DNA of 64,000 bases from Aneurinibacillus thermoaerophilus (GTDB taxonomy: Bacteria; Bacillota; Bacilli; Aneurinibacillales; Aneurinibacillaceae), in NCBI RefSeq assembly GCF_900099925.1, contig NZ_FNDE01000004.1:1-64000 (forward strand), written 5' to 3'. A program made the translations under genes and the position numbers. Positions 13,657-61,549 of the stretch are shown piece after piece; the stretch's first letter is position 1; each line of letters begins with the position of its first letter. A model generated the notes under the pieces. The model did not search any database, was not told where the DNA came from, and saw only the letters and a list, made by a program, of their open reading frames with translations.

Positions 13657-15393
13657 TTATCCTCTAATTTCTGCAATTTCAGGTACGTTGCGCTTCACAA
13701 ACGCCATAATCTCCTCAGCTGTTCCCAATTCAAGCGCTTGCTCTGCCAGCGATTGTAATGCCGTACGGTTCAGCTTATGAATCAAGGCACGTGCAGGCAA
13801 TACAGAGCTCGTGCTCATGCTGAATTCGTCCAGCCCCAAGCCGAGCAGAAGCGGAATGGCCGTAAGATTACCTGCCATTTCACCACACATACCTGCCCAT
13901 TTCCCCTGGCTGTGTGCCGCCCGAATCACCATCCGAATCAGGCGCAACACCGCCGGATGGAACGGCTGCGCTAAATATGATACACGTTCATTCATGCGAT
14001 CCGCTGCTAGCGTATACTGCACCAAATCATTTGTACCAATGCTGAAAAAGTCTACCTCTTTTGCCAGCTGGTCTGCAATCATCGCAGCCGCAGGCACCTC
14101 CACCATCATTCCAACTTCCATCTTTGGATTATATGGAATACCTGAAGCATCCAGTTCCTGTTTTACTTCCGTAAGCAACTGGTTCGCCTGACGCAATTCT
14201 GTCAGTGTCGCAATCATCGGGTACATTAATTTAACATTTCCATGTACGCTCGCACGCAAAATGGCACGCAGTTGAGTTTTAAATATCCCCGGCTGATCCA
14301 GACACAGGCGAATGGCCCGATAACCAAGGAACGGATTCATTTCTTCCGGTACATCGAGGTATGGCAATTCTTTATCGCCACCAATATCCAATGTACGAAT
14401 CACAACTGGACGCGCGCCGAATGTTTCCGCTACCGCCTTATATGCCTCATATTGCTCTTCTTCAGAAGGCAATCCGATGCGACCCATATACAAAAATTCC
14501 GTCCGATAGAGACCGACGCCCTCCGCCCCGTTTTTCTTCGCTCCGATTGCATCATGAAGGTTTCCGATATTGGCTACTACCTCGACATGATGTCCGTCGG
14601 CAGTGATGGATGGTTCATCTTTCAACTTCTTCAATTCCGCAAGGTAAGCCTCGTATTTCGCCTGCTTGTCCCGATACAGAGAAGCGGTCGCTTCATCAGG
14701 GTTCTGATACACAACCCCTTCATTTCCGTCCACAATTATATAATCTCCCTGCTGAATGACAGACGTAATCTCTTTCAAGCCGACAACAGCAGGAATTTCC
14801 ATCGAACGTGCCATAATGGCCGAATGAGACGTACGTCCACCGATATTGGTGGCAAATCCAGCCACTTTCTCCCGATCCAGCTGCGCAGTATCAGATGGTG
14901 TTAAATCGTGTGCCAGCAGCACAACCGGTTCGGCAAAATCGGCCAGCGACTGGCCTTCGATGCCTGCCAGACGTTGCATGACACGACCACTAACATCGCG
15001 AATGTCCGTTGCTCTTTCCCGCATATATTCGTTGTCCATGCTTTCAAACAACATAACAAAGCTGTCCGTTACATCCTGCAATGCCGCTTCTGCATTCAAC
15101 AACTCATTCTTGATTTTATCCTTGACCGCACCGATGTACTCCGGATCTTGCAATACAAGAATATGAGCGGAGAAAATTTCCGCTTCTTCATCTCCTACTT
15201 TTTTACGCACCTGTTCGCGGATGCCTTCCAACTCACGAATAGCCTGCGCCACTTCTTCCTCGAAACGAGCGATTTCCCCCGCTATTTCAGCCGCGTCCAG
15301 TGCGCGGCGTTCCACTTCTACTTTGGCTTCATGCAGCAAAAAAGCAGGGCCCATCGCATATCCGGAAGCTGCGGCGATTCCTGTCCATTTCAT
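13657..15393 (-). CDS. ptsI: PTS enzyme I (phosphoenolpyruvate-protein phosphotransferase)
   Basis: Enzyme I takes phosphate from PEP and passes it to HPr. The 578-residue protein has the phosphohistidine motif GGRTSHSAIMARSMEIPAVVG near residue 190, the PEP-binding RTEFLYMGR and TLDIGGDKELPY blocks, and the catalytic MCGEMAGN cysteine near residue 501. Length is standard (about 570). It begins with GTG-ATG; ATG at 15393 is used. It follows ptsH by 34 bases in the same operon. Confidence 0.98.
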   Translation of the reverse strand: MKWTGIAAASGYAMGPAFLLHEAKVEVERRALDAAEIAGEIARFEEEVAQAIRELEGIREQVRKKVGDEEAEIFSAHILVLQDPEYIGAVKDKIKNELLNAEAALQDVTDSFVMLFESMDNEYMRERATDIRDVSGRVMQRLAGIEGQSLADFAEPVVLLAHDLTPSDTAQLDREKVAGFATNIGGRTSHSAIMARSMEIPAVVGLKEITSVIQQGDYIIVDGNEGVVYQNPDEATASLYRDKQAKYEAYLAELKKLKDEPSITADGHHVEVVANIGNLHDAIGAKKNGAEGVGLYRTEFLYMGRIGLPSEEEQYEAYKAVAETFGARPVVIRTLDIGGDKELPYLDVPEEMNPFLGYRAIRLCLDQPGIFKTQLRAILRASVHGNVKLMYPMIATLTELRQANQLLTEVKQELDASGIPYNPKMEVGMMVEVPAAAMIADQLAKEVDFFSIGTNDLVQYTLAADRMNERVSYLAQPFHPAVLRLIRMVIRAAHSQGKWAGMCGEMAGNLTAIPLLLGLGLDEFSMSTSSVLPARALIHKLNRTALQSLAEQALELGTAEEIMAFVKRNVPEIAEIRG

Positions 15394-15427
15394 CACTGTA
15401 TATCTTCCTCTCCCGCCTGTCTTTTCT

Positions 15428-15688
15428 TTACTCTAAGACGGACTCAATGATTTCACCTACTGCTTGCAATGCTTCCTGTTCTTGTTCACCTTCCGTTACA
15501 ACTGTAAGAGTTTCTCCCTGACGAATCCCCAGCGACATAATACCCATAATGCTTTTTGCGTTCACTTTTTTATCGTCTTTAATAATTGTGACTTCACATG
15601 GAAACGCGCTTGCTTTTTGCACCAGCATCATTGCAGGTCTTGCATGAAGACCGGAAGGATTTTTTATTGTAAATACTTTTTCTGCCAT
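15428..15688 (-). CDS. ptsH: Phosphocarrier protein HPr
   Basis: HPr relays phosphate from Enzyme I to the sugar-specific EIIA domains and, when phosphorylated on Ser46 by HPr kinase, is the CcpA co-repressor. The 86-residue protein shows His15 in GLHARPA and Ser46 in NAKSIMGIMSL. A strong AGGAGG site precedes the ATG, and a stable hairpin at 15709-15754 lies immediately ahead of that site. A second HPr gene is present at 53821. Confidence 0.98.
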   Translation of the reverse strand: MAEKVFTIKNPSGLHARPAMMLVQKASAFPCEVTIIKDDKKVNAKSIMGIMSLGIRQGETLTVVTEGEQEQEALQAVGEIIESVLE

Positions 15689-15708
15689 TTTATATACCTC
15701 CTATACAC

Positions 15709-15754
15709 TAGCGTTGCATAAAAACGAGAGCGAACAGTTTTTAATGCAACGCTA
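15709..15754 (-). promoter_or_regulatory. Stable 5' hairpin directly upstream of the ptsH ribosome site
   Basis: TAGCGTTGCATAAAAAC (15709-15725) pairs with GTTTTTAATGCAACGCTA (15737-15754) with one bulged base and an 11-base loop. In the minus-strand transcript it lies between the RAT terminator and the ptsH Shine-Dalgarno. It has no T-tail, so mRNA stabilisation or translational control is more likely than termination. Confidence 0.6.
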
Positions 15755-15801
15755 CTAACCTCCTAAAAAATACGGAATATGATACCGCTTTCTTCTCCCA
15801 C

Positions 15802-15874
15802 AAAAATAAAAAAGCACGAGAAAATCACCTGCTTTACGATTAACGGATCGCAATTGCAGGAAACTTACTCATGC
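15802..15874 (-). terminator. Terminator of the ptsHI leader, overlapping the RAT
   Basis: On the minus strand GCATGAG (15868-15874) pairs with CTCGTGC (15814-15820, one G-U), enclosing CCTGC/GCAGG, and is followed by TTTTTTATTTTT. The 5' arm is the 3' half of the RAT, so the two folds exclude each other. Confidence 0.75.
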
Positions 15875-15896
15875 CTGGTCGAACCAGTCACACGTA
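15865..15896 (-). promoter_or_regulatory. GlcT-type RAT (ribonucleic antiterminator) before ptsHI
   Basis: The minus-strand sequence ACGTGTGACTGGTTCGACC followed by AGGCATGAGTAA folds as CGTG/CATG below an internal loop and CTGGT/ACCAG above, the two-loop hairpin bound by GlcT/LicT-family CAT domains. It starts nine bases after the glcT stop and shares 20 identical bases with the RAT ahead of ptsG. Binding by GlcT is inference from the family and this match. Confidence 0.8.
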
Positions 15897-15904
15897 CCGA
15901 TATT

Positions 15905-16765
15905 TTATGGAGTTGTAACATGATTAATCATTCGCTGAATGTGTAAGGTTAAATAACTTGCTTCAGCTTCTGGAACGGTTAATTGTAGCTCATTCTGCAT
16001 AATTTTTACCAACTTATAACTTAAACTATAACATATCGGATATTCTTTACGCAACAATTCGCTCAATGGATGGTTCTCACCGAGGCCAATTCCTTCTTCC
16101 GCCCGTTGAATGGCAAACCGTAAATGCGTAAGCAAACGGGCATAATCAAAAGACGTTTTATCGATTTCAATCTCCAGTTCAGATTCAATAGTCTGAACCA
16201 GACGGGAAATTAACATAGAGGAACGATTGATTCTGCTTAAACTCTGATTTTCGCGAACACTGTGTAGATGCAGAGCAATGAAACCGATTTCATCATCAGG
16301 AATGGTCATATTCAACCCTTCTTCCAGCATACATACTCCTTCGTGAGCCAGTTCATATTCGTAGGCATACAGGCTGCGTACTTCATGTAAAAACGGATTA
16401 TGAATCTGGATTCCCTGCCGCAACCGCTTCACCGCAAATGAAATATGATCCATCAATGCCAACATAAACCAATCGCTCATTTTCTTATCCAGCTTTTTTT
16501 CTAGATATTGAACATATTCATTCACCACTCGAATTACATCTTCGTCCGCTTCTGAAAACATGCATATTACTCGCTCTTTATTTTCTTCTGTAGAAAGAAC
16601 GAAAACTTTCTCAATAGCTGCTTGGCTAGTAATGATTTCCCCTTTGGCTTTCTGAAAGCCGATGCCTTTGCCTAACAGAACTACTTCCCGTTTTTGCTCA
16701 TCACGGGCAACTAGCGAGTTATTGTTTAATACACGTTTAATCTCATAACGTTTTCCATTGCCCAT
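15905..16765 (-). CDS. glcT: PTS operon transcription antiterminator GlcT
   Basis: GlcT binds a RAT hairpin in leader RNA and blocks the overlapping terminator when glucose is being taken up. The 286-residue protein has the CAT RNA-binding domain (residues 1-60: YEIKRVLNNNSLVARDEQKREVVLLGKGIGFQKAKGEII) and two PRD domains; PRD1 shows LMDHISFAVKRL and LHLHSVRE, PRD2 shows THLRFAIQR and LTLHIQRM, whose histidines are the phosphorylation sites in the family. It lies between pgi and ptsHI rather than before ptsG, but ptsG diverges nearby. Confidence 0.95.
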   Translation of the reverse strand: MGNGKRYEIKRVLNNNSLVARDEQKREVVLLGKGIGFQKAKGEIITSQAAIEKVFVLSTEENKERVICMFSEADEDVIRVVNEYVQYLEKKLDKKMSDWFMLALMDHISFAVKRLRQGIQIHNPFLHEVRSLYAYEYELAHEGVCMLEEGLNMTIPDDEIGFIALHLHSVRENQSLSRINRSSMLISRLVQTIESELEIEIDKTSFDYARLLTHLRFAIQRAEEGIGLGENHPLSELLRKEYPICYSLSYKLVKIMQNELQLTVPEAEASYLTLHIQRMINHVTTP

Positions 16766-16858
16766 ACCACTTCATCCTTGTCTCCTCGTCTCCTCATTCT
16801 GATGAATGCATTGTAAAACATGGCTCACAGAGAACGCAATGATTTTGCTTTCTTCCGC

Positions 16859-18477
<1,619 letters not shown>

Positions 18478-18629
18478 CTAAAAAATCCATCTTCATAGCA
18501 GCATGTGCCCGTATTCAGCTTTTCTTTTTCCTGTCTCCCACAATTATAACGAGACTTACTTTATCCCTCTTATATGTTTTTCACCCCACGTTCATGGATA
18601 AATTTCCTATAAATGATAATACATGTTTA

Positions 18630-18658
18630 CTATAAAGTTTATACGTAAAATCTGTCAA
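18630..18658 (-). promoter_or_regulatory. Promoter reading toward the pfkA relic and pgi
   Basis: On the minus strand TTGACA (18653-18658) and TTATAG (18630-18635) are 17 bases apart, a good sigma-A match. It points at the pfkA relic, so it may be the ancestral glycolytic promoter now serving pgi. Confidence 0.55.
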
Positions 18659-18683
18659 TTACGTCAATTACATTAAAAAGTAA

Positions 18684-18712
18684 TTGCAAAAAAAGAAAGC
18701 CTGTACTATATT
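18684..18712 (+). promoter_or_regulatory. Promoter of ptsG
   Basis: TTGCAA (18684-18689) and TATATT (18707-18712) are 17 bases apart. Transcription would start near 18719 and run through the RAT leader into ptsG. Confidence 0.6.
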
Positions 18713-18790
18713 ATTTTTCATAAAGCGCCCGAGTTCGCTTTTGAAAACGGATTCAAAAACTTCACACTAAAAATCATTTACACGATCCAT

Positions 18791-18823
18791 GACGTGTTAC
18801 TGTGTTCGACCAGGCATGAGTAA
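18791..18823 (+). promoter_or_regulatory. GlcT-type RAT in the ptsG leader
   Basis: GACGTGTTACTGTGTTCGAC continuing CAGGCATGAGTAA fits the RAT pattern of B. subtilis ptsG (CGTG/CATG lower stem, TGTTAC and CAGGCA internal-loop bases). It overlaps the 5' arm of the terminator at 18814, giving the classical antitermination switch. Confidence 0.85.
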
Positions 18824-18908
18824 TGGAAAGCATGTAGAATATATCACTGTTTTTTTATAGAACAGTATCTGTATATTCTACCTACTTTCTATTGCTCATG
18901 CCCTTTTT
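18814..18908 (+). terminator. Leader terminator of ptsG
   Basis: GCATGAGTAATGGAAAG (18814-18830) pairs over all 17 bases (two G-U) with CTTTCTATTGCTCATGC (18885-18901), followed by CC and six T. An inner hairpin GTAGAATAT/ATATTCTAC closes the loop. Confidence 0.85.
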
Positions 18909-18950
18909 TGCGTGGTGGCATCCGTGTAAAGGAAAAGGAGGAACATAAGC

Positions 18951-20987
18951 ATGTTTAAGAAGGCTTTTGGCGTATTGCAACAAGTTGGTAAATCACTCAT
19001 GCTTCCTGTTGCCATTTTGCCTGCTGCCGGTATTTTGCTAGGTCTCGGTAACGCACTGCAAAATCCGTCATTATTGGAAAGGCTTACATTCTTAGCATCA
19101 CCAGCCTTCCAGATGGTTTTCAAGGTGATGGAGCAAGCTGGAGATGTTATCTTCGGCAATTTGGCCCTGCTTTTTGCCGTTGGTGTTGCCGTTGGCCTGG
19201 CAGGCGGTGAAGGCGTAGCCGGAATCGCTGCCATTATCGGTTTTCTAGTCATGAACAAGACAATGGGGGTTCTCCTGAATGTAACGCCTGAAACAATAAC
19301 ACAAAGCAAAGGGTATGCCATGGTGATGGGTATTCCTACCTTACAAACTGGCGTATTCGGTGGAATTATCATCGGTCTGTTGGCTGCCTTTATGTATAAA
19401 AAATACTCCAACTTTGAACTCCCCCAATTTTTAGGATTCTTTGCCGGAAAACGCTTTGTACCAATTGTGACAGCTGCTTCCACTCTTGTGCTGGGCATTA
19501 TCATGATTTTTGTATGGCCGCCGATTCAAAATGCACTGAACACATTCTCGCACAGCATGATCGATTCGAATCGAACACTCGCAGCCTTTGTTTTCGGTCT
19601 AATTGAGCGTTCTTTAATTCCATTCGGACTCCATCATATTTTCTATGCACCGTTCTGGTTCGAATTCGGTGAATATGTGGACAAAGCGGGCCAGGTCGTT
19701 CATGGGGATCAAAAAATCTTCTTCGCTCAATTGAAAGACGGTGTAGAACTTACAGCCGGTACATTCATGACAGGAAAATTCCCCTTCATGATGTTCGGAC
19801 TTCCGGCCGCCGCACTGGCAATGTACCATGAAGCGCGTCCTGAGAAACGCGCACTCGTTGGTGGTATTTTAAGTTCTGCGGCACTAACGTCATTTCTAAC
19901 AGGGATTACAGAGCCAATCGAGTTTACATTCTTATTTGTTGCCCCTGTTTTGTTTGCGATACATGCAGTGTTTGCCGGTCTTTCATTCATGGTTATGCAT
20001 CTCCTGAATGTAAAAATCGGGCTAACATTCTCCGGAGGTGTCATTGACTATATCCTGCTTGGGATTATCCAAAATCGCACTGACTGGTGGTTAGTCATTC
20101 CGGTAGGTCTTGTATTCTCTGTCATTTACTACTTCGGGTTCCGTATTGCCATTCGCAAATGGAATTTAAAAACACCCGGACGTGAAGGAGAAGAAACAAC
20201 CAATCAAGAGAACGCATCCGCAAATCGTTTTGCGACTGGCGTATTGGCAGGACTTGGTGGAAAAGAAAACATCAAGCATTTAGATGCATGCATTACACGC
20301 TTACGCGTATCTGTGAATGACATTAAAAAAGTGGACAAGGAAAAACTAAAGCAACTTGGTGCGGCTGGCGTACTCGAAGTTGGCAATAACATTCAAGCCA
20401 TCTTCGGTCCAAAGTCCGACCAGTTGAAAGAACAAATTAAGGATATAATGGCAGGTAAAATCCCAACAGAACCTGTTTATGTAGAAGAAATAGCGCCACT
20501 TCCTGTAGATGCGTCACTATCGGGCGAAAACACAGAAGCTGCATTTATTATGCCAATCGATGGGAAAGTGGTAGACCTGAAAGATGTACCTGATCAAGTC
20601 TTCTCACAAAAAATGATGGGCGATGGTTTCGCGATTGAGCCGGATAACGGAGAAGTCGTATCACCGATAGACGGAACGGTTACTACGCTATTCCCGACGA
20701 AGCATGCGGTCGGCCTTCTGGCTGACAATGGTCGCGAAGTTCTGATTCACTTCGGAATCGACACGGTCAAATTGCAAGGAGAAGGCTTTGAAGCGCTTGT
20801 GGAACAGGGTGCGAAAGTCAAAGCCGGACAACCTTTGCTTCGTGTAAACTTAAATGAAATCAAAGGCAAAGTACCGTCAACGATTACACCGATTATTTTC
20901 ACAAACCTTTCCGGTGAAAAAGTTATCGTGACACCTGGCTCGCACGTAAAACGCGGCGAGAAAAATGCCGTTAAACTTACAAAATAA
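18951..20987 (+). CDS. ptsG: PTS glucose-specific permease EIICBA
   Basis: PtsG imports and phosphorylates glucose. The 678-residue protein has the full C-B-A order: an EIIC membrane domain (residues 1-410), EIIB with phosphorylated Cys447 in DACITRLRV, and EIIA(Glc) with His585 (TKHAVGL) and the phosphorylated His600 ([10 protein letters not shown]). EIIC shows the [15 protein letters not shown] and [12 protein letters not shown] family motifs. It diverges from the pgi-glcT-ptsHI side, with its own promoter and RAT leader. Confidence 0.97.
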
Positions 20988-32119: not shown

Positions 32120-32376
32120 ATGCATTCTCGTTAGGCGAGGCTCCAGTTCAAACATAGGCCACTGCCCGGAAACGTCGAGAGACGCCAATGGGTAGAACAG
32201 GTATTGCCGGATTAAGGCTCTACTTAAGGTGGCTGAGTCATGTGACTCTACGTTGTTCTGTGCCGAAGCTCAACCAGGAGAATACTGGAAGCATACGAAG
32301 CTTTTTCGCATGCATCTATTTGTTGTGGGCACAAAAGCCTCTCCTGGCGTCATCTTGCGCGGGAGAGGCTTCTTTT
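32120..32376 (+). ncRNA. M-box (ykoK) magnesium riboswitch
   Basis: The leader carries the M-box signatures CTCGTTAGGCGAGGCTCC (32128-32144), ACATAGGCCACTGCCC (32152-32167), AACGTCGAGAGACGCCAATG (32171-32190) and GGGTAGAACAGG. A terminator follows: AAGCCTCTCC (32335-32344) with GGAGAGGCTT (32362-32371) and TCTTTTATT. In B. subtilis high Mg2+ stabilises a fold that lets the terminator form; the CorA transporter downstream fits that logic exactly. Confidence 0.93.
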
Positions 32377-36092: not shown

Positions 36093-36127
36093 GTTTTCAG
36101 ACAACAAACAATATCGTAAAACAACAA

Positions 36128-36392
36128 TGACGGAGAGGAACTGCAGACGTGATTCTTCAGAGAGCCGGTGGTCGCTGCGAACCGGTGAATCCCCTGCCGT
36201 TTGAGCGCTCCTGAGTTGTCAGGCTGAACCGAAAGAAGTAGGTCTGAACGGATGCTCCGTTACAAGCTGCGGTTCTCGTGTATAGAACCGGTCGAGGCTG
36301 CTGTTGCGAGACAGTAGCGAATGAGGGTGGTACCGCGAAACAAAGCCTTTCGTCCCTCACTACAGGAATGTAGTGAGCACGAAAGGTTTTTT
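36128..36392 (+). ncRNA. T-box riboswitch upstream of serA
   Basis: The leader carries the invariant T-box GAGGGTGGTACCGCG (36323-36337), a stem I with AGAGAGCCGGTGGTCGCTGCG and its return AACCGGTGAA, and a terminator (CCTTTCGTCCCTCACTACA paired with TGTAGTGAGCACGAAAGG, then TTTTTT, 36346-36392). A TCC triplet at 36209-36211 is a candidate specifier for serine tRNA; that reading is inference. Uncharged tRNA(Ser) would favour antitermination and serine synthesis. Confidence 0.93.
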
Positions 36393-36449
36393 AGTACAAA
36401 AATATATCTAGGGGGAAAAGGCGTCAAGCGCCGCGGAGGTGTAAATTAC

Positions 36450-38033
36450 ATGTTTAAAGTATTAGTAAGCGACCCATTAAGTGAATTTGGCATTCAAAAA
36501 TTGCTGGAGGCGGAAGACGTTCAGGTTGACCGCAAGACAGGACTCTCCGAAGCGGAACTGATCGATATTATCGGAGAATATGACGCGCTGCTTGTGCGCA
36601 GTCAAACAAAAGTAACGGCCGCTGTTATTGAAGCAGGTAAAAAACTAAAAGCAATCGGCCGTGCAGGGGTTGGAGTGGATAACATCGACCTGACAGCTGC
36701 AACAAATGCGGGGATCGTTGTCATCAATGCGCCGGACGGAAATACGATTTCTACGGCAGAACATACTTTTGCAATGATTATGGCTTTGGCTCGCCGTATT
36801 CCACCAGCATACAAAAAACTGGTAGAAGGCGAATGGGATCGCAGGGCGTTCACGGGCGTAGAATTGAACAAAAAAGTGCTGGGCATCATCGGTCTGGGAC
36901 GAATTGGCGCTGAAGTAGCAAAACGTGCTAAAGCGTTTAATATGAGCGTGATCGCATACGATCCGTTCCTGACTCAAGAACGTGCCGACAAATTGGGCGT
37001 TAAATTCGGCACGCTCGATGATGTGATTACGCAAGCCGATTTCATTACAGTCCACACTCCATTGACAAAAGATACAAAATATCTCATTAATACGAAACAA
37101 TTTGAAAAAATGAAGGACGGCGTACGCATCATTAACTGTGCCCGCGGCGGAATTATCAGCGAAAAAGCGCTGTATGAAGCGATTGTAAGCGGCAAGGTTG
37201 CCGGCGCCGCCATCGACGTATTCGAACAAGAACCGCCCGTGGACAATCCGCTTTTGAAATTGCCACAAGTCATTGTGACGCCGCACCTTGGGGCGTCTAC
37301 CGTCGAAGCGCAGGAGAACGTTGCCATCGACGTATCCGAAGAAATTCTGCATATTCTACATGACGAGCCATTTAAAAACGCGGTGAACCTACCGTCTATT
37401 CCGGCCAATGTCATGGAAAAAGTAAAGCCGTACTTTGAACTGAACGAAAAACTCGGTTCCTTTATCGCACAGATTGCGGTCGGCGGCTTGAAAGAAGTAA
37501 TCATTACTTATTCCGGCGAGCTGAATGATATTGATACGGCGGCTCTGACGCGCACGACGCTGAAAGGCATTCTGTCCTATCATCTCGGCTCGGCCGCAAA
37601 CTATGTAAACGCACCGATTCTTGCGAAAAACCGTGACATTCATGTAACTGAGCAAAAATCAACATACAGCAGTGGATTCAGCAACCTGATTACAGTTACG
37701 CTGAAAACGAGCCAGGAAGAACGAACCGTGTCCGGTACACTGCTGAATGGCTACGGTCCGCGCATCGTTAAAATTGACGGCTATTCCATCGACCTCGTTC
37801 CGCAAGGACACCTGCTGCTTGTCCATCACAATGACCGTCCGGGTGCCATTGGCCGCGTAGGTACCATCCTTGGCGACAACGATGTGAACATCGCAACCAT
37901 GCAGGTAGGACGTCGCGATGTAGGCGGCCAAGCCATCATGCTTCTAACCGTCGACAAGGAAGTAAGTCCGAACGTACTGGACACGCTAGGTGAACTAAAT
38001 GAGATTACAAGCGTAACGCAACTCGAACTATAA
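36450..38033 (+). CDS. serA: D-3-phosphoglycerate dehydrogenase
   Basis: First enzyme of serine synthesis. The 527-residue long-form protein has an NAD-binding domain (GLGRIGAEVAKRAKAFNM), catalytic NCARGGII and TPHLGASTVEAQENVA motifs, an intervening ASB domain and a C-terminal ACT domain (VHHNDRPGAIGRVGTILGDN). The ATG at 36450 follows GCGGAGGTG; the frame open from 36321 lies in the T-box RNA. Regulation is by the T-box upstream. Confidence 0.97.
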   Translation: MFKVLVSDPLSEFGIQKLLEAEDVQVDRKTGLSEAELIDIIGEYDALLVRSQTKVTAAVIEAGKKLKAIGRAGVGVDNIDLTAATNAGIVVINAPDGNTISTAEHTFAMIMALARRIPPAYKKLVEGEWDRRAFTGVELNKKVLGIIGLGRIGAEVAKRAKAFNMSVIAYDPFLTQERADKLGVKFGTLDDVITQADFITVHTPLTKDTKYLINTKQFEKMKDGVRIINCARGGIISEKALYEAIVSGKVAGAAIDVFEQEPPVDNPLLKLPQVIVTPHLGASTVEAQENVAIDVSEEILHILHDEPFKNAVNLPSIPANVMEKVKPYFELNEKLGSFIAQIAVGGLKEVIITYSGELNDIDTAALTRTTLKGILSYHLGSAANYVNAPILAKNRDIHVTEQKSTYSSGFSNLITVTLKTSQEERTVSGTLLNGYGPRIVKIDGYSIDLVPQGHLLLVHHNDRPGAIGRVGTILGDNDVNIATMQVGRRDVGGQAIMLLTVDKEVSPNVLDTLGELNEITSVTQLEL

Positions 38034-53032: not shown

Positions 53033-53746
53033 TTAAAGAGACAAAATCCCATCCACTTCTTCTTTTGTTAGCGGGCGGTATTTTCCTTCTGGCACACCAT
53101 CCAGCGTCAGAAACCCGAGCCGAACCCGCTTTAACTTCAACACAGGATGCCCCACCGCTTCGCACATCCGGCGCACCTGCCGGTTGCGTCCCTCGTGGAT
53201 GGTTAACCGGATGGCACTTCTTCTGTTTCTTTCATCGTAGGAAAGCCGCTCCGCCTGCGCGGGCGCTGTCATTCCGTCTTCCAGCATCACACCTTTGCAC
53301 AGCCGCATAAGCGCTTCTTCTCCTATTCTTCCCTTCACGACTGCTTCATAGACTTTATCCAGTTCATGACGCGGATGCATGATACGGTTGGCGAACGCGC
53401 CGTCGTTCGTGAGAAGCAGCAGGCCGGACGTATCGTAATCCAACCTTCCCACCGGATAAATCCGTTCTTTAACATGCTCCATCAAATCCAGCACCGTTTT
53501 TCTTCCTTGCGGATCAGTGACCGATGTAATATAGCCGACCGGTTTATTTAACAGAAAATACACATGTTTTTCAAGCACGATTTTTTGTCCATCCACTTCA
53601 ATTTCATCCCGCTCTGGATCGGCTTTGAAACCGAGCGTCCGAATTACTTCTCCGTTGACCTTCACGCGACCAGCCGCAATAAGTTCCTCGCACTTTCTGC
53701 GGGAAGCAACCCCTGCCCGGGCCATAATTTTCTGCAATCGTTCCAT
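53033..53746 (-). CDS. rluB: 23S rRNA pseudouridine synthase RluB
   Basis: Modifies the 23S rRNA (position 2605 in E. coli). The 237-residue protein has an N-terminal S4 RNA-binding domain (MERLQKIMARAGVASRRKCEELIAAGRVKVNG) and the catalytic GRLDYDTSGLLLLTNDG with Asp, then HPRHELDKVYEA and INEGRNRQVRRM-like HEGRNRQVRRMCEAV. In B. subtilis rluB (ypuL) lies between spmB and resA; here a GlcNAc operon separates it from spmB. Confidence 0.95.
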   Translation of the reverse strand: MERLQKIMARAGVASRRKCEELIAAGRVKVNGEVIRTLGFKADPERDEIEVDGQKIVLEKHVYFLLNKPVGYITSVTDPQGRKTVLDLMEHVKERIYPVGRLDYDTSGLLLLTNDGAFANRIMHPRHELDKVYEAVVKGRIGEEALMRLCKGVMLEDGMTAPAQAERLSYDERNRRSAIRLTIHEGRNRQVRRMCEAVGHPVLKLKRVRLGFLTLDGVPEGKYRPLTKEEVDGILSL

Positions 53747-53768
53747 GTATGTATCACCCTCCTTTCCC

Positions 53769-53797
53769 ATCATACCCTTCCCGTCGCCCGGATACAA
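53769..53797 (-). promoter_or_regulatory. Candidate promoter of rluB
   Basis: Minus-strand TTGTAT (53792-53797) and TATGAT (53769-53774) with 17 bases between, just upstream of the rluB ribosome site. Confidence 0.45.
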
Positions 53798-53820
53798 CGC
53801 GCAAACAAAAAAAGCTGGGC

Positions 53821-54081
53821 TCATCCTCTTTCTTCTAGCAAAAATTGCTCCAAAAAAGCAATCGCTTCTTGTTCGTCGATTCCATTTGCGGTCAATGTGA
53901 CTTCTTCCCCTTTGGCAATCACCAACGACATAACCCCCATTATGCTCTTCGCATTTACAAATTTACCATTTTTACCAATGGAAATATCGCTATTAAATAA
54001 AGTTACTCTACTTACAAGTTGAGCAGCTGGGCGAGCATGAAGACCTTGTTGAAGATTAACGATTATTTTCTTTTCGATCAT
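53821..54081 (-). CDS. Second HPr phosphocarrier of the GlcNAc operon
   Basis: An 86-residue HPr paralogue with the same length as PtsH. His15 (GLHARPA) and Ser46 (NAKSIMGVMSL) are both kept, so it is a functional HPr type, not Crh (which lacks His15). It differs from PtsH at many positions (IIVNLQQG versus FTIKNPSG). It is the last gene of the GlcNAc operon and lies 24 bp after the free EIIA gene. A dedicated phosphorelay for GlcNAc or a second CcpA co-regulator is possible. Confidence 0.9.
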   Translation of the reverse strand: MIEKKIIVNLQQGLHARPAAQLVSRVTLFNSDISIGKNGKFVNAKSIMGVMSLVIAKGEEVTLTANGIDEQEAIAFLEQFLLEERG

Positions 54082-54105: not shown

Positions 54106-54597
54106 TCATTTCACTTTCATTTTCATAATGGACGTTTCTCCCATTTTCGCTTCTTTAGGCCATTCCATTTCGATTTGGTCCATTCGATCTGGATTTATAA
54201 TGACAATCGGTGTTATCGCACTTTTCGCTTTTTCTTTTACCAAATCTATGGAAAACTCAAGAAGCGGGTCCCCAACTTTTACTTTATCCCCGGCTCTTAC
54301 ATAAGCGACAAACCCTTCTCCCTGCATAAAGACGGTTTCTAAGCCAATATGAATCAATAGTTCCACTCCTTTTTCTGAACGCAAGCCAACAGCATGTTTC
54401 GTCGGAAATACCTGAACAACTTCCCCTTTTACAGGGGAGACAACTTTCCCTTCTTTTGGTATAATCGCAACTCCTTCCCCTACCATTTTTTTTGAAAAGG
54501 TGGGATCAGGCACTTCTTCTATTCTGACCACTTCACCATGTAAGGGAGCCATAATGACTTCTCTTGTGTCTTTCTCTCCAAACCACCTTTTAAACAT
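54106..54597 (-). CDS. Free-standing EIIA(Glc)-type PTS protein
   Basis: A 163-residue EIIA of the glucose family. The two active-site histidines are visible: His68 (TKHAVGL) and the phosphorylated His83 (LLIHIGLETV). The NagP permease in this operon lacks an A domain, so this is its likely phosphate donor. It also carries the family C-terminal VIINPDRMDQIEM. The ATG has AAAGGAGA-like AGGAGAC. Confidence 0.93.
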   Translation of the reverse strand: MFKRWFGEKDTREVIMAPLHGEVVRIEEVPDPTFSKKMVGEGVAIIPKEGKVVSPVKGEVVQVFPTKHAVGLRSEKGVELLIHIGLETVFMQGEGFVAYVRAGDKVKVGDPLLEFSIDLVKEKAKSAITPIVIINPDRMDQIEMEWPKEAKMGETSIMKMKVK

Positions 54598-54690: not shown

Positions 54691-55517
54691 CTATTGAAAT
54701 TCATAAGGCAAACGTTCCAAATGTAACGTTAAAAAACCGATCTCCTTATCCGGTACATCCTTGCCTAACTCTTCAGCAATGATGTCGGCTAATTTTCGCG
54801 CTTTTGCAAATCCGTCCGAATACCGCTCACGAATACTCTCAATAAGTGGATTATCTATGGTTTTGCCGGACTTTACACGATCAATCAAGGCTTTTAAATG
54901 CGATACAAAACGAATCATAGAAAACGAATCGTCCATCTTATACCCTTCGGCTTTTAGCTGATCTAAGATTTTGGAAACAATCCGTGCAATCCCCAAAGCT
55001 ACTTTTTTATCAGAAAAAGATCGGGCTGAATGAAAGTGTGTAGCCAAAAATGCGATCTCTTCTTCCGGGAGAGTAACATCAAGCTTCTTATTCAAGTACG
55101 CAACCGCTTCTTCCGCGATTTTATATTCTTCGGGATATAGATACTTAATTTCAAAAACGAACGGATTGCTTAAATAAATCCCTCTTTTAATTCGCTCAAT
55201 GGCAAAGTTAATATGATCAATCAAGGCTGCATGAATTGTATCAGAGAAAGGGCCCGACAATTTTTGAATCGCCAGCGCAATCACCTCTTCTGTTGCTGCA
55301 ATAATCGGAAAGTTTACCATCTTAATCACTTGCTGATAATGTTCAATCGCTTCTGCCGTATGCAAGAGAAACTCCTGCGAGATAGCGGCCGGATCGATTA
55401 AATCCCCGTTTTTTTTTTAAATCCGATACCTTTTCCAAATACTATGGAATTATTTCCGGATAAGAGTTTGGCAAGCACTACATTATGAGATAAAACTTGC
55501 ACAATCTTTCGTTCCAT
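54691..55517 (-). pseudogene. BglG/GlcT-family antiterminator of the GlcNAc operon, frameshifted in A10
   Basis: The frame starts at 55517 (MERKIVQVLSHNVVLAKLLS, GAGGGGA upstream) and encodes the CAT RNA-binding domain to GKGIGFKKK. There it enters a run of ten A residues (ten T at 55409-55418 on the plus strand) and stops at a TAA soon after. In the next frame the sequence continues at once as GDLIDPAAISQEF and then PRD1 (LIDHINFAIERI, THFHSAR) and PRD2 (RFVSHLKALIDR, LTLHLERL) to the stop at 54691. Adding one A gives one 275-residue protein. Whether it is a true mutation, phase variation or slippage-rescued cannot be told. Confidence 0.85.
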
Positions 55518-55538: not shown

Positions 55539-56282
55539 TTATCCCCTGTTTTTCTCTCTTTTCAAAAGTAAGGCGGCAGCGGCCTCATCAAGTACAAAGG
55601 TAACGTTAGGATGAAGTTGCAGAATACTGGCGGGCAAACTTGTCCGCACATCCCCATACACAGCTTCTACCACAGCTTGCGCCTTTTCTTCCCCAAATGC
55701 CAACAGCAAAATTTGTTTGGATAATAGAATCGACTGCAACCCCATCGTGATGGCATGTTCAGGCACTTCACCTGGACTTTCGAAAAATCTGGCATTTGCC
55801 TGAATGGTCACATGGGCAAGCTTAACAATATGCGTTTTCGATTTTAGAGAAACATCCGGCTCATTAAATCCAATATGCCCGTTAATGCCGATTCCTAAGA
55901 TTTGAATATCAATAGGATTCAATTGAATAATCTGATCATACCGTTGGCATTCCTGTTCAAGATCTTCCGCGTCTCCCCTTGGAATATATGTTCTTGATTG
56001 ATCGATATTCACATGATCAAATAAATAGCGTTTCATAAAATAACGATAGCTCTGCGGATGATCAGCAGAAATCCCCACATATTCATCCAGATTAATCGTT
56101 GTCACGCGGGAGAAATCAAGCCCCCACTGATGCATTCGAATCAACTCGTAATAAAGAGGAATCGGCGTCGAACCTGTGGCCAATCCAAGAACCGGATACG
56201 CACGGTTCTTGATAATCTGTTCAATAACAGTTGCACTATAAATAGCGCCTTCTCTGGCTGTCGAAAAAATCCGAATATCCAT
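55539..56282 (-). CDS. nagB: Glucosamine-6-phosphate deaminase
   Basis: Converts glucosamine-6-phosphate to fructose-6-phosphate and ammonia. The 247-residue protein shows LGLATGSTPIPLYYELIR, TTINLDEYVGISADHPQSYRYFM with catalytic Asp, and GIGINGHIGFNEPDVS. It is 22 bp upstream of the antiterminator and follows nagA by 16 bp. Confidence 0.96.
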   Translation of the reverse strand: MDIRIFSTAREGAIYSATVIEQIIKNRAYPVLGLATGSTPIPLYYELIRMHQWGLDFSRVTTINLDEYVGISADHPQSYRYFMKRYLFDHVNIDQSRTYIPRGDAEDLEQECQRYDQIIQLNPIDIQILGIGINGHIGFNEPDVSLKSKTHIVKLAHVTIQANARFFESPGEVPEHAITMGLQSILLSKQILLLAFGEEKAQAVVEAVYGDVRTSLPASILQLHPNVTFVLDEAAAALLLKREKNRG

Positions 56283-56298: not shown

Positions 56299-57423
56299 TT
56301 ACTTTCTAAATACTAAGTTTCCGCGGACAATGGTATGCGTCACCTGTAACCGTTCATCGAATGCGATGATATCTCCATCAAATGAAGGTGCAATCACCCC
56401 TTTGCGAAGTTTAAGAAGGCGGGACTGATTTTGGGAAGTGACCCTGGATATTTCCTGTTTTCCCAGTGTTCCTGCATCGAGCAAATTTCTGACTGCCTGA
56501 TCCATGGTCAATGTACTACCCGCGATCGTTCCGTTGGAAAGAGTCGCCACTCCTTGCCGAACAAAAACCATTTGTCCACCCAATTCATATATCCCGTCCT
56601 TCATGCACGCCGCCCGCATCGCATCAGTAATCAAAAGCAGCCGTTCTTCTCCCATAGCTCGCATCATCGCTTTGACTACAAACGGATGGACATGCCGATA
56701 ATCGACAATCAACTCAACATAAATCTCCTCATCCGATAAACCAAATCCAGCAAGCCCCGGTTCGCGATGGTGAAATCTACTCATTGCATTAAAAAGATGA
56801 GTAACACTCTGTGCCCCCCATGCTTTTCCTTGCTGCGCATCAGAAAGGTCAGCGGCACTGTGGCCCATCGATACTACGATTCCCTGTTCAGTGGCAAAGC
56901 GAATCAATGCCTCCGCCCCCGGAAGCTCCGGAGCAACTGTTATAATCTTCACTTGATGTCGCGATCGTTCGATCCATTCTGCAAGAAGTTCAATATTCGG
57001 CTCTATAATATGTTGCTGTGCATGCGCTCCCGGATAATCGGGATTAATAAACGGGCCTTCCAGATGAAACCCTAACACCTGAGCTCCTTCAGATTGAAAG
57101 GTAGGCTCCAATGTTTCCATCACTCGCTGAATACGCTCCGGACTTTCGGTCATAGTCGTTAAATAGAGACCTGTTGTACCATGTGCCGCATGCGTTTTGG
57201 CAATCGTTTGGAATGCCTCAGGCGAGGCATCCATCGTATCTGCTCCCCCGCCGCCATGCACATGAATATCGATAAAACCCGGATACAACTCTCCATTTGT
57301 CTCAATCAATGTAGCGCCTTCCAAATCTGTCTTCGAAAGTTGCCCGGTTGCTGTAATTATTCCATCCTCAATTAAAATCTGCTGGCGTTCTTGGTTTAGA
57401 ATTCCGGATACTACTGTCTTCAC
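56299..57423 (-). CDS. nagA: N-acetylglucosamine-6-phosphate deacetylase
   Basis: Removes acetate from GlcNAc-6-phosphate. The 374-residue amidohydrolase has the metal site PGFIDIHVHGGGGADTMD, the EGPFINPDYPGAHAQ block, TVAPELPGA, GHSAADL and the catalytic Asp in LITDAMRA. GTG at 57423 follows GGAGG by eight bases. It supplies substrate for NagB. Confidence 0.95.
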   Translation of the reverse strand: MKTVVSGILNQERQQILIEDGIITATGQLSKTDLEGATLIETNGELYPGFIDIHVHGGGGADTMDASPEAFQTIAKTHAAHGTTGLYLTTMTESPERIQRVMETLEPTFQSEGAQVLGFHLEGPFINPDYPGAHAQQHIIEPNIELLAEWIERSRHQVKIITVAPELPGAEALIRFATEQGIVVSMGHSAADLSDAQQGKAWGAQSVTHLFNAMSRFHHREPGLAGFGLSDEEIYVELIVDYRHVHPFVVKAMMRAMGEERLLLITDAMRAACMKDGIYELGGQMVFVRQGVATLSNGTIAGSTLTMDQAVRNLLDAGTLGKQEISRVTSQNQSRLLKLRKGVIAPSFDGDIIAFDERLQVTHTIVRGNLVFRK

Positions 57424-57493
57424 CACAACAACCTCCCCTATCCATTTCATGCTTAACTTCAAAAGTTTATGGTATAAATTTCATAAAAAATTT

Positions 57494-58945
57494 TTAGCTT
57501 GCGCTTTGATTCAGTAGTGATTTTATCTCTTCTTTAATAAGTTCCGATTCTGTTCCAAATACAATTTGTACATTTCCTTTTCCTAAACGCATAACGCCGG
57601 CTGCGCCCAACTTTTTTAACTCCTCGTCTTTCACAAGGGAATCATCACCTACGATTAGCCGCAAACGGGTAATGCACGCATCAATATTCCTGATGTTCTC
57701 GACTCCGCCAATCAACGGAAGAATAGACATCGCCCTTTCCTTCATTTCTAAAGCATTGCCCTCTTCTTTGAACGTTGTTCCCGATTCAGTCGGAACCTCA
57801 TCCCGTCCCGGCGTCTTCAAATCAAACATGCGAATGAAAAACCGGAATACAAAATAATACACGATAAAGCAAGCGGCTCCAAACGGTATCAGCAACCACG
57901 GTTTGGTAGCCAAATGCCAGTTAAGAACATAGTCGATGAAACCTGCCGAAAAACCAAACCCCAAATGCATCCCTGACAAATACGTGAAAGCCATAAAAAG
58001 ACCCGTTAAAATCGCGTGTATGATAAATAATAGCGGCGCTAAAAACATAAACGAAAATTCAATCGGCTCCGTAACCCCTGTCAAAAACGAAGCGAAAGCG
58101 GCCGATAGCAATACGGATGAAACGAAAGCTCTTTTTTCCGGTTTGGCTTCCTTGACCATAGCTATGCAAGCGGCCGGAAGCCCAAACATCATGATCGGGA
58201 AAAACCCTGTCATAAACATCCCTGCCGTCTTATCGCCCGCAAAATATCTGGATAAATCGCCATGAAAAACATCCCCTGCTACATTGGTAAATTCCCCGAT
58301 TTGAAACCATGTAATTGAATTCAAAATATGATGCAAGCCAAATGGGATTAGCAAGCGATTTAACAAGCCGTATAAAAACATGCCGATTCCACCTGCCGAA
58401 ACAATCCACATTCCCAGTGCATGAATACCATTTTGCACCGGCAACCATACATAGCCCATCACCACACCAAAAACAACCATCACCAGCGCAGTAACAATCG
58501 GAACAAATCGGCTTCCGCTAAAAAAGCCAAGCGCTTGCGGCAGTCGAATGTCTTTGTATCGTCTATACAAAAAAGCTGTCACAGCACCAGTAATAATCCC
58601 CCCTATTACCCCCATATCTAAATGAACAATCTTTTCTCCATTCGGCCCAATAACATCAAAAACATTCAACACATTGGTTAGAACAAAATAACCAAGCGTC
58701 GCAGCCAGCCCGGCAACACCGGCTCCATCCGTCAAACCGATGGCAACGCCAATGGCAAACAACATCGGCAGATTTCCAAGTATCGCCCCTCCGCCTGCCG
58801 AAAAAATTTTGGCCAGGTGTGCCATGAATGGATTTTGAAATTTCATGGCACCGATTCCCAAAAGAATTGCGGCTGCCGGCAAGACCGCAATCGGCATCAT
58901 AAGTAAGCGACCGATTTTTTGTAATGCACTTAATACATTCATCAT
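57494..58945 (-). CDS. nagP: PTS N-acetylglucosamine permease EIICB
   Basis: A 483-residue permease that imports GlcNAc as its 6-phosphate. EIIC domain (residues 1-380) shows [22 protein letters not shown] and TEPIEFSFMFLAP, typical of GlcNAc-specific permeases; the EIIB domain has Cys in [11 protein letters not shown]. It lacks an A domain; the free EIIA at 54106 fits. First gene of the operon, behind a RAT-like leader. Confidence 0.93.
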   Translation of the reverse strand: MMNVLSALQKIGRLLMMPIAVLPAAAILLGIGAMKFQNPFMAHLAKIFSAGGGAILGNLPMLFAIGVAIGLTDGAGVAGLAATLGYFVLTNVLNVFDVIGPNGEKIVHLDMGVIGGIITGAVTAFLYRRYKDIRLPQALGFFSGSRFVPIVTALVMVVFGVVMGYVWLPVQNGIHALGMWIVSAGGIGMFLYGLLNRLLIPFGLHHILNSITWFQIGEFTNVAGDVFHGDLSRYFAGDKTAGMFMTGFFPIMMFGLPAACIAMVKEAKPEKRAFVSSVLLSAAFASFLTGVTEPIEFSFMFLAPLLFIIHAILTGLFMAFTYLSGMHLGFGFSAGFIDYVLNWHLATKPWLLIPFGAACFIVYYFVFRFFIRMFDLKTPGRDEVPTESGTTFKEEGNALEMKERAMSILPLIGGVENIRNIDACITRLRLIVGDDSLVKDEELKKLGAAGVMRLGKGNVQIVFGTESELIKEEIKSLLNQSAS

Positions 58946-58974: not shown

Positions 58975-59040
58975 AAAAAAAATAAAAGTGGGCATAAGCT
59001 TAAGAAGCAAAAAATTAGCTTCTCAAGCTTATGCCCACTT
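58975..59040 (-). terminator. Leader terminator of the GlcNAc operon
   Basis: AAGTGGGCATAAGCTTAAGA and three further bases (58986-59008) pair with 59018-59040 almost perfectly over 23 positions. The minus-strand transcript then reads TTATTTTTTTT. It would stop transcription before nagP unless antiterminated. Confidence 0.85.
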
Positions 59041-59055
59041 AAGGTAACATGCTTG
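59024..59055 (-). promoter_or_regulatory. RAT-like antiterminator hairpin in the nagP leader
   Basis: Minus-strand CAAGCATGTTACCTTAAGTG then GGCATAAGCTTG. CAAGC/GCTTG and ATG/CAT close it, and the TGTTAC and GGGCAT internal-loop bases match RATs. Its 3' half is the 5' arm of the terminator, as in GlcT/LicT-controlled leaders. The binding protein is probably the operon's own antiterminator. Confidence 0.65.
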
Positions 59056-59210: not shown

Positions 59211-59744
59211 TTATCCAAACACAAACCAAACGACAAGAAGCGAAGCGATCACGCCAATAAAATCGGACATGAGTCCGACTTTCAGCGCATACTTTGTGTT
59301 ACGCACCGCCACCGCGCCGAAGTACACCGTAAGCACGTACAATGTCGTATCTGTGCTTCCCTGAATCGTACTCGCCAGGCGACCAATATATGAATCTGGA
59401 CCATACTGCGCGATCAGATCAGTTGTAATCGCAAGCGATCCCGAACCGGTAATGGGACGCAGAAGCGAGAGCGGCAGAACCTCCGCTGGAAAATGTACAA
59501 GATCAAGCACAGGACGGAGCAGCCTAAGCAGCACATCAAGCGCACCCGATTCACGAAAAATCGTAATTGCTACCATCATTCCAACCAGGTGGGGCATAAT
59601 GCGTATGGCAGTTCCAAAACCGGACTTCGCGCCTAAGATGAACGTGTCATAGACCGGTACCTTTTTATAGAGCGCGTATACAAGTACGTATGAAAGAAGG
59701 AACGGAATCGCCCAGACGGACAATTGTGTAACAAGGGCATACAT
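59211..59744 (-). CDS. spmB: Spore maturation protein SpmB
   Basis: A 177-residue membrane protein of the nucleoside-recognition (Gate) family needed for full spore-core dehydration. Segments: FILGAKSGFGTAIRIMPHLVGMMVAI and LLRPITGSGSLAITTDLI. The ATG at 59744 overlaps the spmA stop (TAATG) with AAAGGAG upstream; a GTG at 59756 is less well placed. Confidence 0.94.
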   Translation of the reverse strand: MYALVTQLSVWAIPFLLSYVLVYALYKKVPVYDTFILGAKSGFGTAIRIMPHLVGMMVAITIFRESGALDVLLRLLRPVLDLVHFPAEVLPLSLLRPITGSGSLAITTDLIAQYGPDSYIGRLASTIQGSTDTTLYVLTVYFGAVAVRNTKYALKVGLMSDFIGVIASLLVVWFVFG

Positions 59745-60328
59745 TACCGCTTCCACTCCTTTCTCTGGTACCAGCGATCGATCAGAATAGCACCTGTAGT
59801 AGCGATAAACGTGGCAAGAAGGGTCGTTCCGACGATTTCCGCCGGATTGGCCGAATTGTAATTCATGCGGATCGCGATAATCGTAGTGGGAATCAGCGTC
59901 ATACTAGCGGTATTTAAAGCAAGCAACGTACACATCGCTGGGGTGGCGGTCTTCGGATCAGGATTTAGCTTTTGCAGCTCCTGCATCGCTTTTATCCCCA
60001 TCGGCGTCGCCGCATTTCCAAGACCAAAGAGATTGGCCGTCATATTTGAAAGAATGTAGCCAAAAGCAGGATGATCTTTCGGTACGGTAGGAAATAACCA
60101 GCGGGCGAGCGGCCCAAGCAGGCGAGCCATTTTGTCCAGCAGGCCCGCTTCTTCCGCCACTTTCATCACACCCATCCAGAAAATAAGAATACTGATTAAC
60201 CCAAACGTAACAGTCACGCCGGTTTTGGCTCCTTCGAACACCGCCTTGTTGACCGCGTCCACATTTCCTGTTACAAACGCGGTCACAATTCCGATAAAAA
60301 TCATACCCGCCCAAATATAATTTACCAT
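59744..60328 (-). CDS. spmA: Spore maturation protein SpmA
   Basis: A 194-residue membrane protein of the same fold as SpmB: FEGAKTGVTVTFGLISILIFWMGVMKVAEEAGLL and LSNMTANLFGLGNAATPMGIKAMQEL. It lies one base after dacB and overlaps spmB; dacB-spmA-spmB is a known mother-cell operon in B. subtilis. Confidence 0.95.
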   Translation of the reverse strand: MVNYIWAGMIFIGIVTAFVTGNVDAVNKAVFEGAKTGVTVTFGLISILIFWMGVMKVAEEAGLLDKMARLLGPLARWLFPTVPKDHPAFGYILSNMTANLFGLGNAATPMGIKAMQELQKLNPDPKTATPAMCTLLALNTASMTLIPTTIIAIRMNYNSANPAEIVGTTLLATFIATTGAILIDRWYQRKEWKR

Positions 60329-61432
60329 CTACATCCCCTCCAGCATCGTCCTGAAGAACGATTCCAGATTCGATGTAAAGCGGTTCCCGATCGCCTGTGC
60401 CACTGTTTCCTGTTCGATCGTAAGCGCTACCCGCCCAATGAGTTTACCATCAAGCCTAATCTCAAGGAACGGCCCTCGAATATTGCGAACCAATTGCTTT
60501 TCTATCCGCGATTTCTCCTCTTGCGACAGCGGATAGGAGAATGCTTGCTTGGTATAATAGGCAAGTACGCCATCTTCCCGCTTATCTTCGCCTACCCGTT
60601 CGCCCGCGCGTATAACCTCCGTGCGCGAAAACTGGCTGAATCCGTAATCCAACCATTTCATGGAGTCTTCCCAATCCTGCGGCGCATTTAATACTACGAC
60701 AGCAAGCTGTTGTCCGTTCCGGGTAGCGGAAGAAGATAGGCACCGTTTCGCCAGTTTTGTGTATCCCGTTTTTACCCCGTCTGCTCCTTTATACAGGCGG
60801 AGCATTTTATTTTTGTTCACCAGTTTGCGATCCCATTGCTCTCCTTCCCACGGAATGTATTTTACTTGTGTGGAAACGATTTTGCGGAATTCCGGGTTGC
60901 GCAGGGCATACGCGGTCAACAACGCCATATCCCGCGCTGTAGAATAGTGATTGTCGCTATCATCAAGTCCATGTGGATTCGTAAAATGGCTGGAGTGCAT
61001 GCCAATATATTCCGCTTTTTCGTTCATAAGACGAGCAAAGCCTTCGATAGAGCCCCCCACATGTTCGGCAATCGCCACGGCAGCGTCATTACCCGAACGC
61101 AGCATCAAGCCGTACAACATATCTTCCATTTTCATTTTTTCGCCACGCTTCAAATAAATGGAAGAGCCCTCTTTGCCGTATGCGCTATTCGGCGTTGTGA
61201 CAATATCCTGACTATTCCCTTCTTCAAGCGCAACAATAGCTGTCATAATTTTTGTCAGGCTGGCAATACGCATTCGTCTGTCCGCTTGCTTTTCCGCGAG
61301 AATGCGTCCGGTGGCGACGTCAATAAGTGCGGCGGTTTCCGCAGACACGGGCGGAAGCGCGGGCCCGGCAGCGATCGTCGGTTGCGGCAGCATCATCAGA
61401 AAAGCAATGAGTATAAAAACGAGCTTTTTCAC
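60329..61432 (-). CDS. dacB: Spore-cortex D-alanyl-D-alanine carboxypeptidase DacB (PBP5*)
   Basis: Trims peptide side chains of spore cortex peptidoglycan. The 367-residue protein has a signal peptide (residues 1-22), SLTK (Ser58 nucleophile, Lys61), SGN in LMLRSGNDAAV and KTG in GADGVKTGYTK, then a C-terminal beta domain. GTG at 61432 follows GGGGGATC. A CATAAT plus CATATACAT pair 13 bases apart upstream resembles a sigma-E promoter, tentatively. Confidence 0.93.
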   Translation of the reverse strand: MKKLVFILIAFLMMLPQPTIAAGPALPPVSAETAALIDVATGRILAEKQADRRMRIASLTKIMTAIVALEEGNSQDIVTTPNSAYGKEGSSIYLKRGEKMKMEDMLYGLMLRSGNDAAVAIAEHVGGSIEGFARLMNEKAEYIGMHSSHFTNPHGLDDSDNHYSTARDMALLTAYALRNPEFRKIVSTQVKYIPWEGEQWDRKLVNKNKMLRLYKGADGVKTGYTKLAKRCLSSSATRNGQQLAVVVLNAPQDWEDSMKWLDYGFSQFSRTEVIRAGERVGEDKREDGVLAYYTKQAFSYPLSQEEKSRIEKQLVRNIRGPFLEIRLDGKLIGRVALTIEQETVAQAIGNRFTSNLESFFRTMLEGM

Positions 61433-61549
61433 TCCGATCCCCCTTTGCCATTTGCACAGTTTGTCCTGTCCCATCTATGTACATGTATATGGCTCATCCA
61501 GGAGATTATGAGCGTTCAAACAAATTTTAGCTTCTTATCACCCGCAACC

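Follow-up and report, generated by a model that had tools for sequence, protein, structure and literature searches.

The window analyzed here, the whole stretch of 64,000 nucleotides from Aneurinibacillus thermoaerophilus (contig NZ_FNDE01000004.1), contains a nag gene set whose order on the minus strand is nagE, nagA, nagB, antiterminator, EIIA(Glc)-type and HPr-type (Table 1). The antiterminator gene belongs to the BglG/SacY family and is split over two frames. A RAT-like element and an intrinsic terminator, both intact, precede nagE. Together with the neighboring genes, this agrees with the initial annotation in assigning the antiterminator to a GlcNAc gene set, whose members are presumably co-transcribed. 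The set also has its own HPr-type gene with a GLHARPA histidine motif, an extra general PTS protein, and is flanked by genes that we take to be spmB (59211-59756) and rluB (53033-53824).

Table 1. Positions in the window of the nag gene set, its leader elements, the parts of the split antiterminator gene and the antiterminator paralogue.
Feature	Position	Strand	Basis
Paralogue of the antiterminator, intact, GlcT-like from its location by the ptsG-type gene	15905..16765	minus	CAT_RBD 1-57 of 57 and PRD; 36% identity
HPr-type protein, GLHARPA motif	53821..54081	minus	TIGR01003 above cutoff; sequence
EIIA(Glc)-type PTS protein	54106..54597	minus	TIGR00830 above cutoff
Split gene (two frames) of the nag-operon antiterminator, BglG/SacY family	54691..55517	minus	827 nt; frames, Pfam, NCBIfam neighbors
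Downstream frame: end of CAT and two PRDs, 241 open codons, then TAG	54691..55416	minus	
Stem-loop (predicted), 6 nt behind the A10, might stimulate a -1 frameshift	55342..55402	minus	fold
Upstream frame: first ~36 CAT model positions, 33 codons to GIGF + 6 = 39 aa	55398..55517	minus	
A10 tract (T10 on the plus strand), frame-change site, nt 100-109 of the gene	55409..55418	minus	
nagB, glucosamine-6-P deaminase	55539..56282	minus	TIGR00502 above cutoff
nagA, GlcNAc-6-P deacetylase	56299..57462	minus	TIGR00221 above cutoff
nagE, GlcNAc-specific PTS EIIBC	57494..58945	minus	TIGR01998, 559.7 bits (cutoff 553.2)
22-bp intrinsic terminator overlapping the RAT, U-rich stretch behind	58987..59039	minus	leader fold
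RAT-like element AAGC-AUGUUA-CC ... GG-GCAUAA-GCUU	59025..59054	minus	12/12 leaders aligned; pairing analysis

The antiterminator gene starts with the ATG at 55517, and its upstream frame reads MERKIVQ...GIGFKKKTGI*. Ten A residues follow directly after the 33 codons that end in GIGF, and a stop is reached six codons later. The upstream piece matches the Pfam model CAT_RBD at 7e-11 over model positions 2-36 of 57, and the downstream piece gives two stretches of PRD (PF00874) at 5.4e-48, so that the two PRDs typical of BglG/SacY antiterminators lie in the downstream frame. The CAT RNA-binding domain (about 55 residues) and the PRDs, which in GlcT and LicT antiterminators share the common make-up CAT-PRD1-PRD2, are not in one frame as encoded. 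Judged from its sequence, the gene as it stands is a broken member of the BglG/SacY family.

The interruption at the A10 tract, first noticed in the initial annotation, is confirmed, and the frames change there. The same annotation had described CAT and the PRDs as lying in different frames that meet at the tract. The frames indeed differ, but the junction lies inside CAT and not between the domains. Since the intact orthologues L032 and L033 cover CAT_RBD 2-54 and the break falls at model position 36, about one third of CAT is located in the PRD frame. Because the frame break is inside CAT, no complete free CAT domain would be made, and the proposed product of this type, of about 37 residues, is ruled out. 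The encoded 39-aa product lacks about one third of the RNA-binding domain, and it is unlikely to act in the manner of a free CAT. The suggestion that one extra A would restore a 275-aa protein holds, as the pieces sum to 33 + 1 + 241 residues. In addition, a TTG at 55365 behind CAGGAG could start a PRD-only protein without the RNA-binding domain; this start may be accidental, since the orthologues have similar letters in the codons of their conserved QEF.

The best NCBIfam model for the antiterminator is GlcT, but the scores of the two pieces, 189 and 27 bits, fall short of the cut-off (320), and therefore the gene is not filed as GlcT. Searched against the PDB, the short CAT piece gave no match at 0.01. 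Orthologue L033 matched 3rio, 1tlv and 1h99 (GlcT and LicT antiterminators) as well as SacY (1auu).

A search for related loci confirmed 170 stretches, and the best 80 of these 170 were compared. The closest 11 orthologues (L032-L042; Caldalkalibacillus, Pseudalkalibacillus, a Bacillota MAG and eight Paenibacillus) are 53-72% identical to the antiterminator, and the next is 38% identical. All 11 carry nagE upstream within the 3-kb flank, directly in ten cases and with EIIA and HPr genes between in L034. Their genes are open from CAT to PRD in one frame, with 14 residues between GIG(F/Y) (AIGF in one) and QEF in each. Counted by hand, the same distance in the window comprises ten A residues and 31 nt, i.e., 41 nt; compared with 14 codons in 11/11 orthologues, the gene thus lacks exactly one base, in the tract or next to it. 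An A run of six or more at the junction occurs in 0/11 orthologues, although in L034 an A6 precedes the junction position by about 38 nt. In the alignment of homologues, a check that the initial annotation had proposed, the intact single frame is found throughout, and the A tract is not conserved. A conserved slippery site is accordingly rejected for these 11 orthologues. The gene is also missing from six congeners, so the tract is a singleton in a comparison in which the species is represented by one genome.

Among the best 80 of the 170 loci, 78 keep the frame open for 40 codons or more upstream of the match, a count in which the presence of CAT was not checked individually. In one of the two exceptions, L108, CAT is not visible by eye. 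In the other, L089 (Cellulosilyticum ruminicola JCM 14822, upstream of 835), CAT and the PRDs stand in different frames with no homopolymer of six or more near the junction, possibly owing to a draft error. The distant locus L050 (Bacillus MAG) contains an A8 in an open frame, 74 nt before a match that starts at query residue 8, which is the same place as the A10 of the window. This suggests that A tracts can occur in the lysine-rich turn while the frame stays open. The nagE of L032 (Caldalkalibacillus mannanilyticus, about 2335-2366) gives two matches that overlap (residues 1-346 and 339-479), perhaps reflecting a frame break in that draft. No relative was confirmed in viral contigs.

While the regulator is out of frame, its target in the nagE leader is intact. 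The 3' half of the RAT is part of the 5' arm of the terminator, which provides the overlap of RAT and intrinsic terminator before the target gene that is expected for BglG/SacY systems, and the 255-nt leader folds with a z of -7.9 for the whole leader. Across 12 leaders, the six RAT pairs are formed in 72/72 pair cells, with changes on both sides at two pairs (6 cells). Four of the six pairs are nearly uninformative, three being invariant and one varying on one side. The paired percentage, the number of cells changed on both sides and the covariation score were reached by 0/500 shuffles, which ignore relatedness, whereas the number of pairs changed on both sides (173/500) and of further pair types (466/500) resembled the shuffles. 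Versions of the RAT slid along the leader pair worse, at most 58%. Rfam gave no match at the nagE leader RAT at gathering scores. A RAT pattern search in the genus found matches at the level of the backwards control (2 vs 3 in the own genome), and for this reason the RAT analysis was confined to the nagE leader. By the BglG/SacY mechanism, the antiterminator should bind this RAT, and it should matter to the operon, since both leader elements are intact and show conservation in 12/12 leaders. Seven Paenibacillus loci (L035, L037-L042) have a second RAT-terminator-like element on the downstream side of the antiterminator gene (about 3748-3871), and the antiterminator may control another gene there.

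In six congeners, rluB comes next after spmB and no nag-gene match lies between them, the gap being about 95 nt in four and about 650-700 nt in L161 and L162. The antiterminator found no match at 1e-20 in any of these six same-genus genomes, and nagE none at 1e-60. Third-position GC amounts to 0.31-0.45 in the six nag-set genes; in 11 other sampled genes, it is 0.43-0.55 in ten and 0.36 in the paralogous antiterminator (rluB 0.54; gene 60329-61474, 0.55). The simplest reading would be that the nag set is an acquired operon. A second PTS cluster at 13657-20987 consists of a ptsI-like gene (13657-15396), the antiterminator paralogue and a ptsG-type gene (18951-20987), the ptsI and ptsG names being assigned by eye. 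Besides nagE itself, the genome has the ptsG-type gene as a second match to nagE, and at 1e-60 the six congeners have none; PTS sugar uptake may therefore be a recent gain of the species. Before the ptsG-type gene, a RAT-like element (ACGTGTTACTG...CAGGCATGAGT) was noted by eye at 18789-18824, followed by a long hairpin-like sequence.

The A10 tract is the only A/T run of at least nine in the window. A9 matches are not enriched there, with two seen against a mean of 6.4 in dinucleotide shuffles, 92/100 of which had at least two. In the entire assembly, 14 overlapping A10 matches correspond to 11 tracts (eight A10 and three A11), and only one of these 11, the antiterminator tract, interrupts a gene according to the layout of ORFs of at least 150 codons. 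The other ten are intergenic by this layout, which leaves out some other, mostly shorter ORFs that cross some of them; a position outside long ORFs is as expected if such tracts harm genes. Of 49 A9 tracts in the genome, 30 were inspected, and seven lie within unbroken open frames of 344-589 codons (L132, L134, L141, L143, L151, L153 and L154), suggesting that A9 is tolerated in genes and is in frame in the assembly. Since AAA makes up 66% of lysine codons (248/377; 17 window genes), consecutive AAA codons call for no special explanation.

Combined, these data lead us to favor, with a chance that we put close to even, a real, recent and leaky one-base deletion by replication slippage in the lysine-rich A tract. 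According to the known BglG/SacY mechanism, the operon, antiterminator included, would be transcribed during GlcNAc uptake, with the antiterminator binding the RAT before nagE and blocking formation of the overlapping terminator. Slippage of DNA polymerase in the all-AAA stretch may have shortened the tract by one base, which would put the last third of CAT and both PRDs out of frame. Slippage of RNA polymerase, possibly also of the ribosome, at A10 would then allow a minority of messages or translation events to yield the full 275 aa. The single missing base, the conserved RAT and terminator, and the 241 downstream codons without a stop and with a strong PRD score support this reading. Judged solely by the absence of further lesions, the change would be recent, since the other parts of the gene, its RAT and its neighbors look intact. 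The gene would be leaky rather than null, since A10 is long enough for slippage, and some full-length antiterminator is probably still made.

A homopolymer of slippage-prone length had been proposed at this site, and the frame break does coincide with an A10, a length reported for RNA polymerase slippage. In the portions of the published work available to us, slippage rescue is about 20-25% at the A11 of Citrobacter rodentium tssM1 (PMC4256274) and about 16% in each direction at the A9 of IS1447 (PMC6211511), and the A10 of spa13 is named as a slippage case (PMC6260861). The direction and efficiency of slippage are variable, and an in vitro test with E. coli polymerase at A11, quoted in the same source, gave more deletions than insertions (PMC6260861). 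Full-length rescue in the window would require a net gain of one base or an equivalent shift, and deletions dominated in that E. coli test. For A10, the available part of PMC5574713 gives no rate, and that of PMC5723342 is about another, suggested frameshift. At the DNA level, the A tract of B. subtilis swrA shortens from 9 to 8 bases at ~1e-4 and lengthens from 8 to 9 at 1e-5 (PMC2831843). 'Pseudo pseudogenes' of the same make-up have been described with A9/T9 tracts (PMC1088944), and the features of this class are found here, namely an A/T run of at least nine at the break (A10) and homologues with a single open frame.

The strongest rival, which we regard as rather unlikely though well worth weighing, is an assembly or base-calling error, in which case the real tract would be in frame and the antiterminator ordinary and intact. 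Shortening of a long A tract by one base is a usual type of sequencing error, the genome is a draft of 103 contigs, and the remainder of the gene and operon looks functional. The good order of the gene remainder, the RAT and the neighbors means that the break is recent, rescued or absent. The GeneTack authors, in the accessible part of their paper, regard sequencing errors, rather than genuine indels, as the expected origin of singletons whose frameshifts are validated by BLASTp; recent indel mutation is another origin of singletons that they mention (PMC3711429). Against an error, A9, A10 and A11 tracts are written out elsewhere in the assembly, the seven A9-bearing frames among the 30 of 49 inspected loci are unbroken, and no other broken gene was seen by eye in the ORF lists of the window. 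The number of overlapping A10 matches is not low compared with the six congeners (14 vs 1 to 15 per genome), and hence the tracts of this assembly are not visibly collapsed. Generic poor assembly is therefore not supported by the inspected A9 loci or the tract counts, while this single tract may still contain an error. On balance, the clean A9 genes and the resolved A10-A11 tracts incline us, at roughly even chances, towards the real, recent and leaky break rather than an error.

The remaining readings accept the break and differ in what it does. Phase variation, in which the tract would be a heritable and frequent on/off switch that toggles GlcNAc use in subpopulations, appears distinctly unlikely. 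The tract is near the 5' end of the gene, like the A tract of swrA (PMC2831843), and loss or gain of one base would switch the self-activating operon off or on; however, none of the 11 orthologues has the tract at the junction, and reversibility is true of any such tract and does not in itself indicate selection. Very unlikely in our judgment is programmed recoding, by which RNA polymerase slippage and/or -1 ribosomal frameshifting would fix a low dose of antiterminator. A slippery heptamer, A_AAA_AAA, does stand in the right frame, where a -1 shift joins the frames and gives the same protein, and the predicted stem-loop downstream (-22.7 kcal/mol, z -2.9; 3/200 shuffles as low) would weakly favor ribosomal frameshifting. 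Its stability is nevertheless reached by 199/6005 coding windows (16 genes, ~3%), including 2/258 in the antiterminator gene, and the fold at the same position is weaker in 11/11 orthologues (-2.3 to -15.3 kcal/mol), which need no shift; moreover, conservation of the slippery tract, which would be expected of programmed recoding, is found in 0/11. An equally slim chance is given to plain loss with negligible rescue, where terminator readthrough or the paralogue would run the operon, or GlcNAc would go unused. The intact paralogue is a possible partial stand-in for the broken antiterminator, and cross-talk is possible since the RAT-like element before the ptsG-type gene is similar in make-up to the nag RAT; slippage may also go mainly the wrong way (PMC6260861). 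Yet several bacterial genes with A9-A11 breaks yield full-length product (PMC1088944, PMC4256274, PMC6211511, PMC6260861), and no decay is seen elsewhere in the gene, the RAT or the neighbors. Slimmer still is the chance that the A10 tract and the stem-loop together act in stochastic dosing, with rare slippage or -1 events separating GlcNAc users from non-users; such rare shifts would seed positive feedback because the antiterminator gene belongs to the very set of genes that its product switches on through the leader.

A real and leaky break would have precedents in other bacteria. The comparisons that follow are drawn from the parts of the cited papers open to us. Like the window, Enterococcus faecalis NagY-nagE combines a BglG/SacY antiterminator beside nagE, a RAT over a terminator and a GlcNAc PTS (PMC9981650). 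NagY, however, is uninterrupted and encoded before nagE, whereas the antiterminator here is interrupted and located after nagB, with the RAT before nagE (PMC9981650). The tssM1 gene of C. rodentium is likewise stopped soon after a long A tract, and slippage restores its full-length protein; both the slippage and the need for the two products were shown there, whereas rescue in our case is predicted and the short product is a partial domain (PMC4256274). The 'pseudo pseudogenes' with A9/T9 (PMC1088944) and the polyA frameshifts of Blochmannia (PMC3017870) share the single break at a slippery tract with intact homologues. In contrast to AT-rich endosymbionts with many genic tracts of at least nine (PMC3017870), this genome has one genic A run of at least ten by ORF layout. 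In B. subtilis swrA, the length of a 5' A tract likewise sets the frame of a regulator, but switching was measured there, while the tract of the window is known from one genome sequence (PMC2831843).

If the break is real, labeling the antiterminator a 'pseudogene' could mislead, because the tract is of slippage length and little protein may suffice for an antiterminator that activates its own operon. The locus would then offer a simple test case of slippage rescue or tract-length switching in a sugar regulator, outside endosymbionts, IS elements and secretion systems. In the portions of the open full-text literature (PMC) available to us, no report of either was found for a PRD antiterminator. 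In the case of an assembly error, the break would be only a caution.

Two further RNA elements were noted on the plus strand of the window. An M-box magnesium riboswitch (32120-32287, 150 bits) is situated upstream of the ORF at 32425. A T-box leader (36118-36360, 110 bits) overlaps the listed start of the ORF at 36321-38033, which reads by eye like a phosphoglycerate dehydrogenase.
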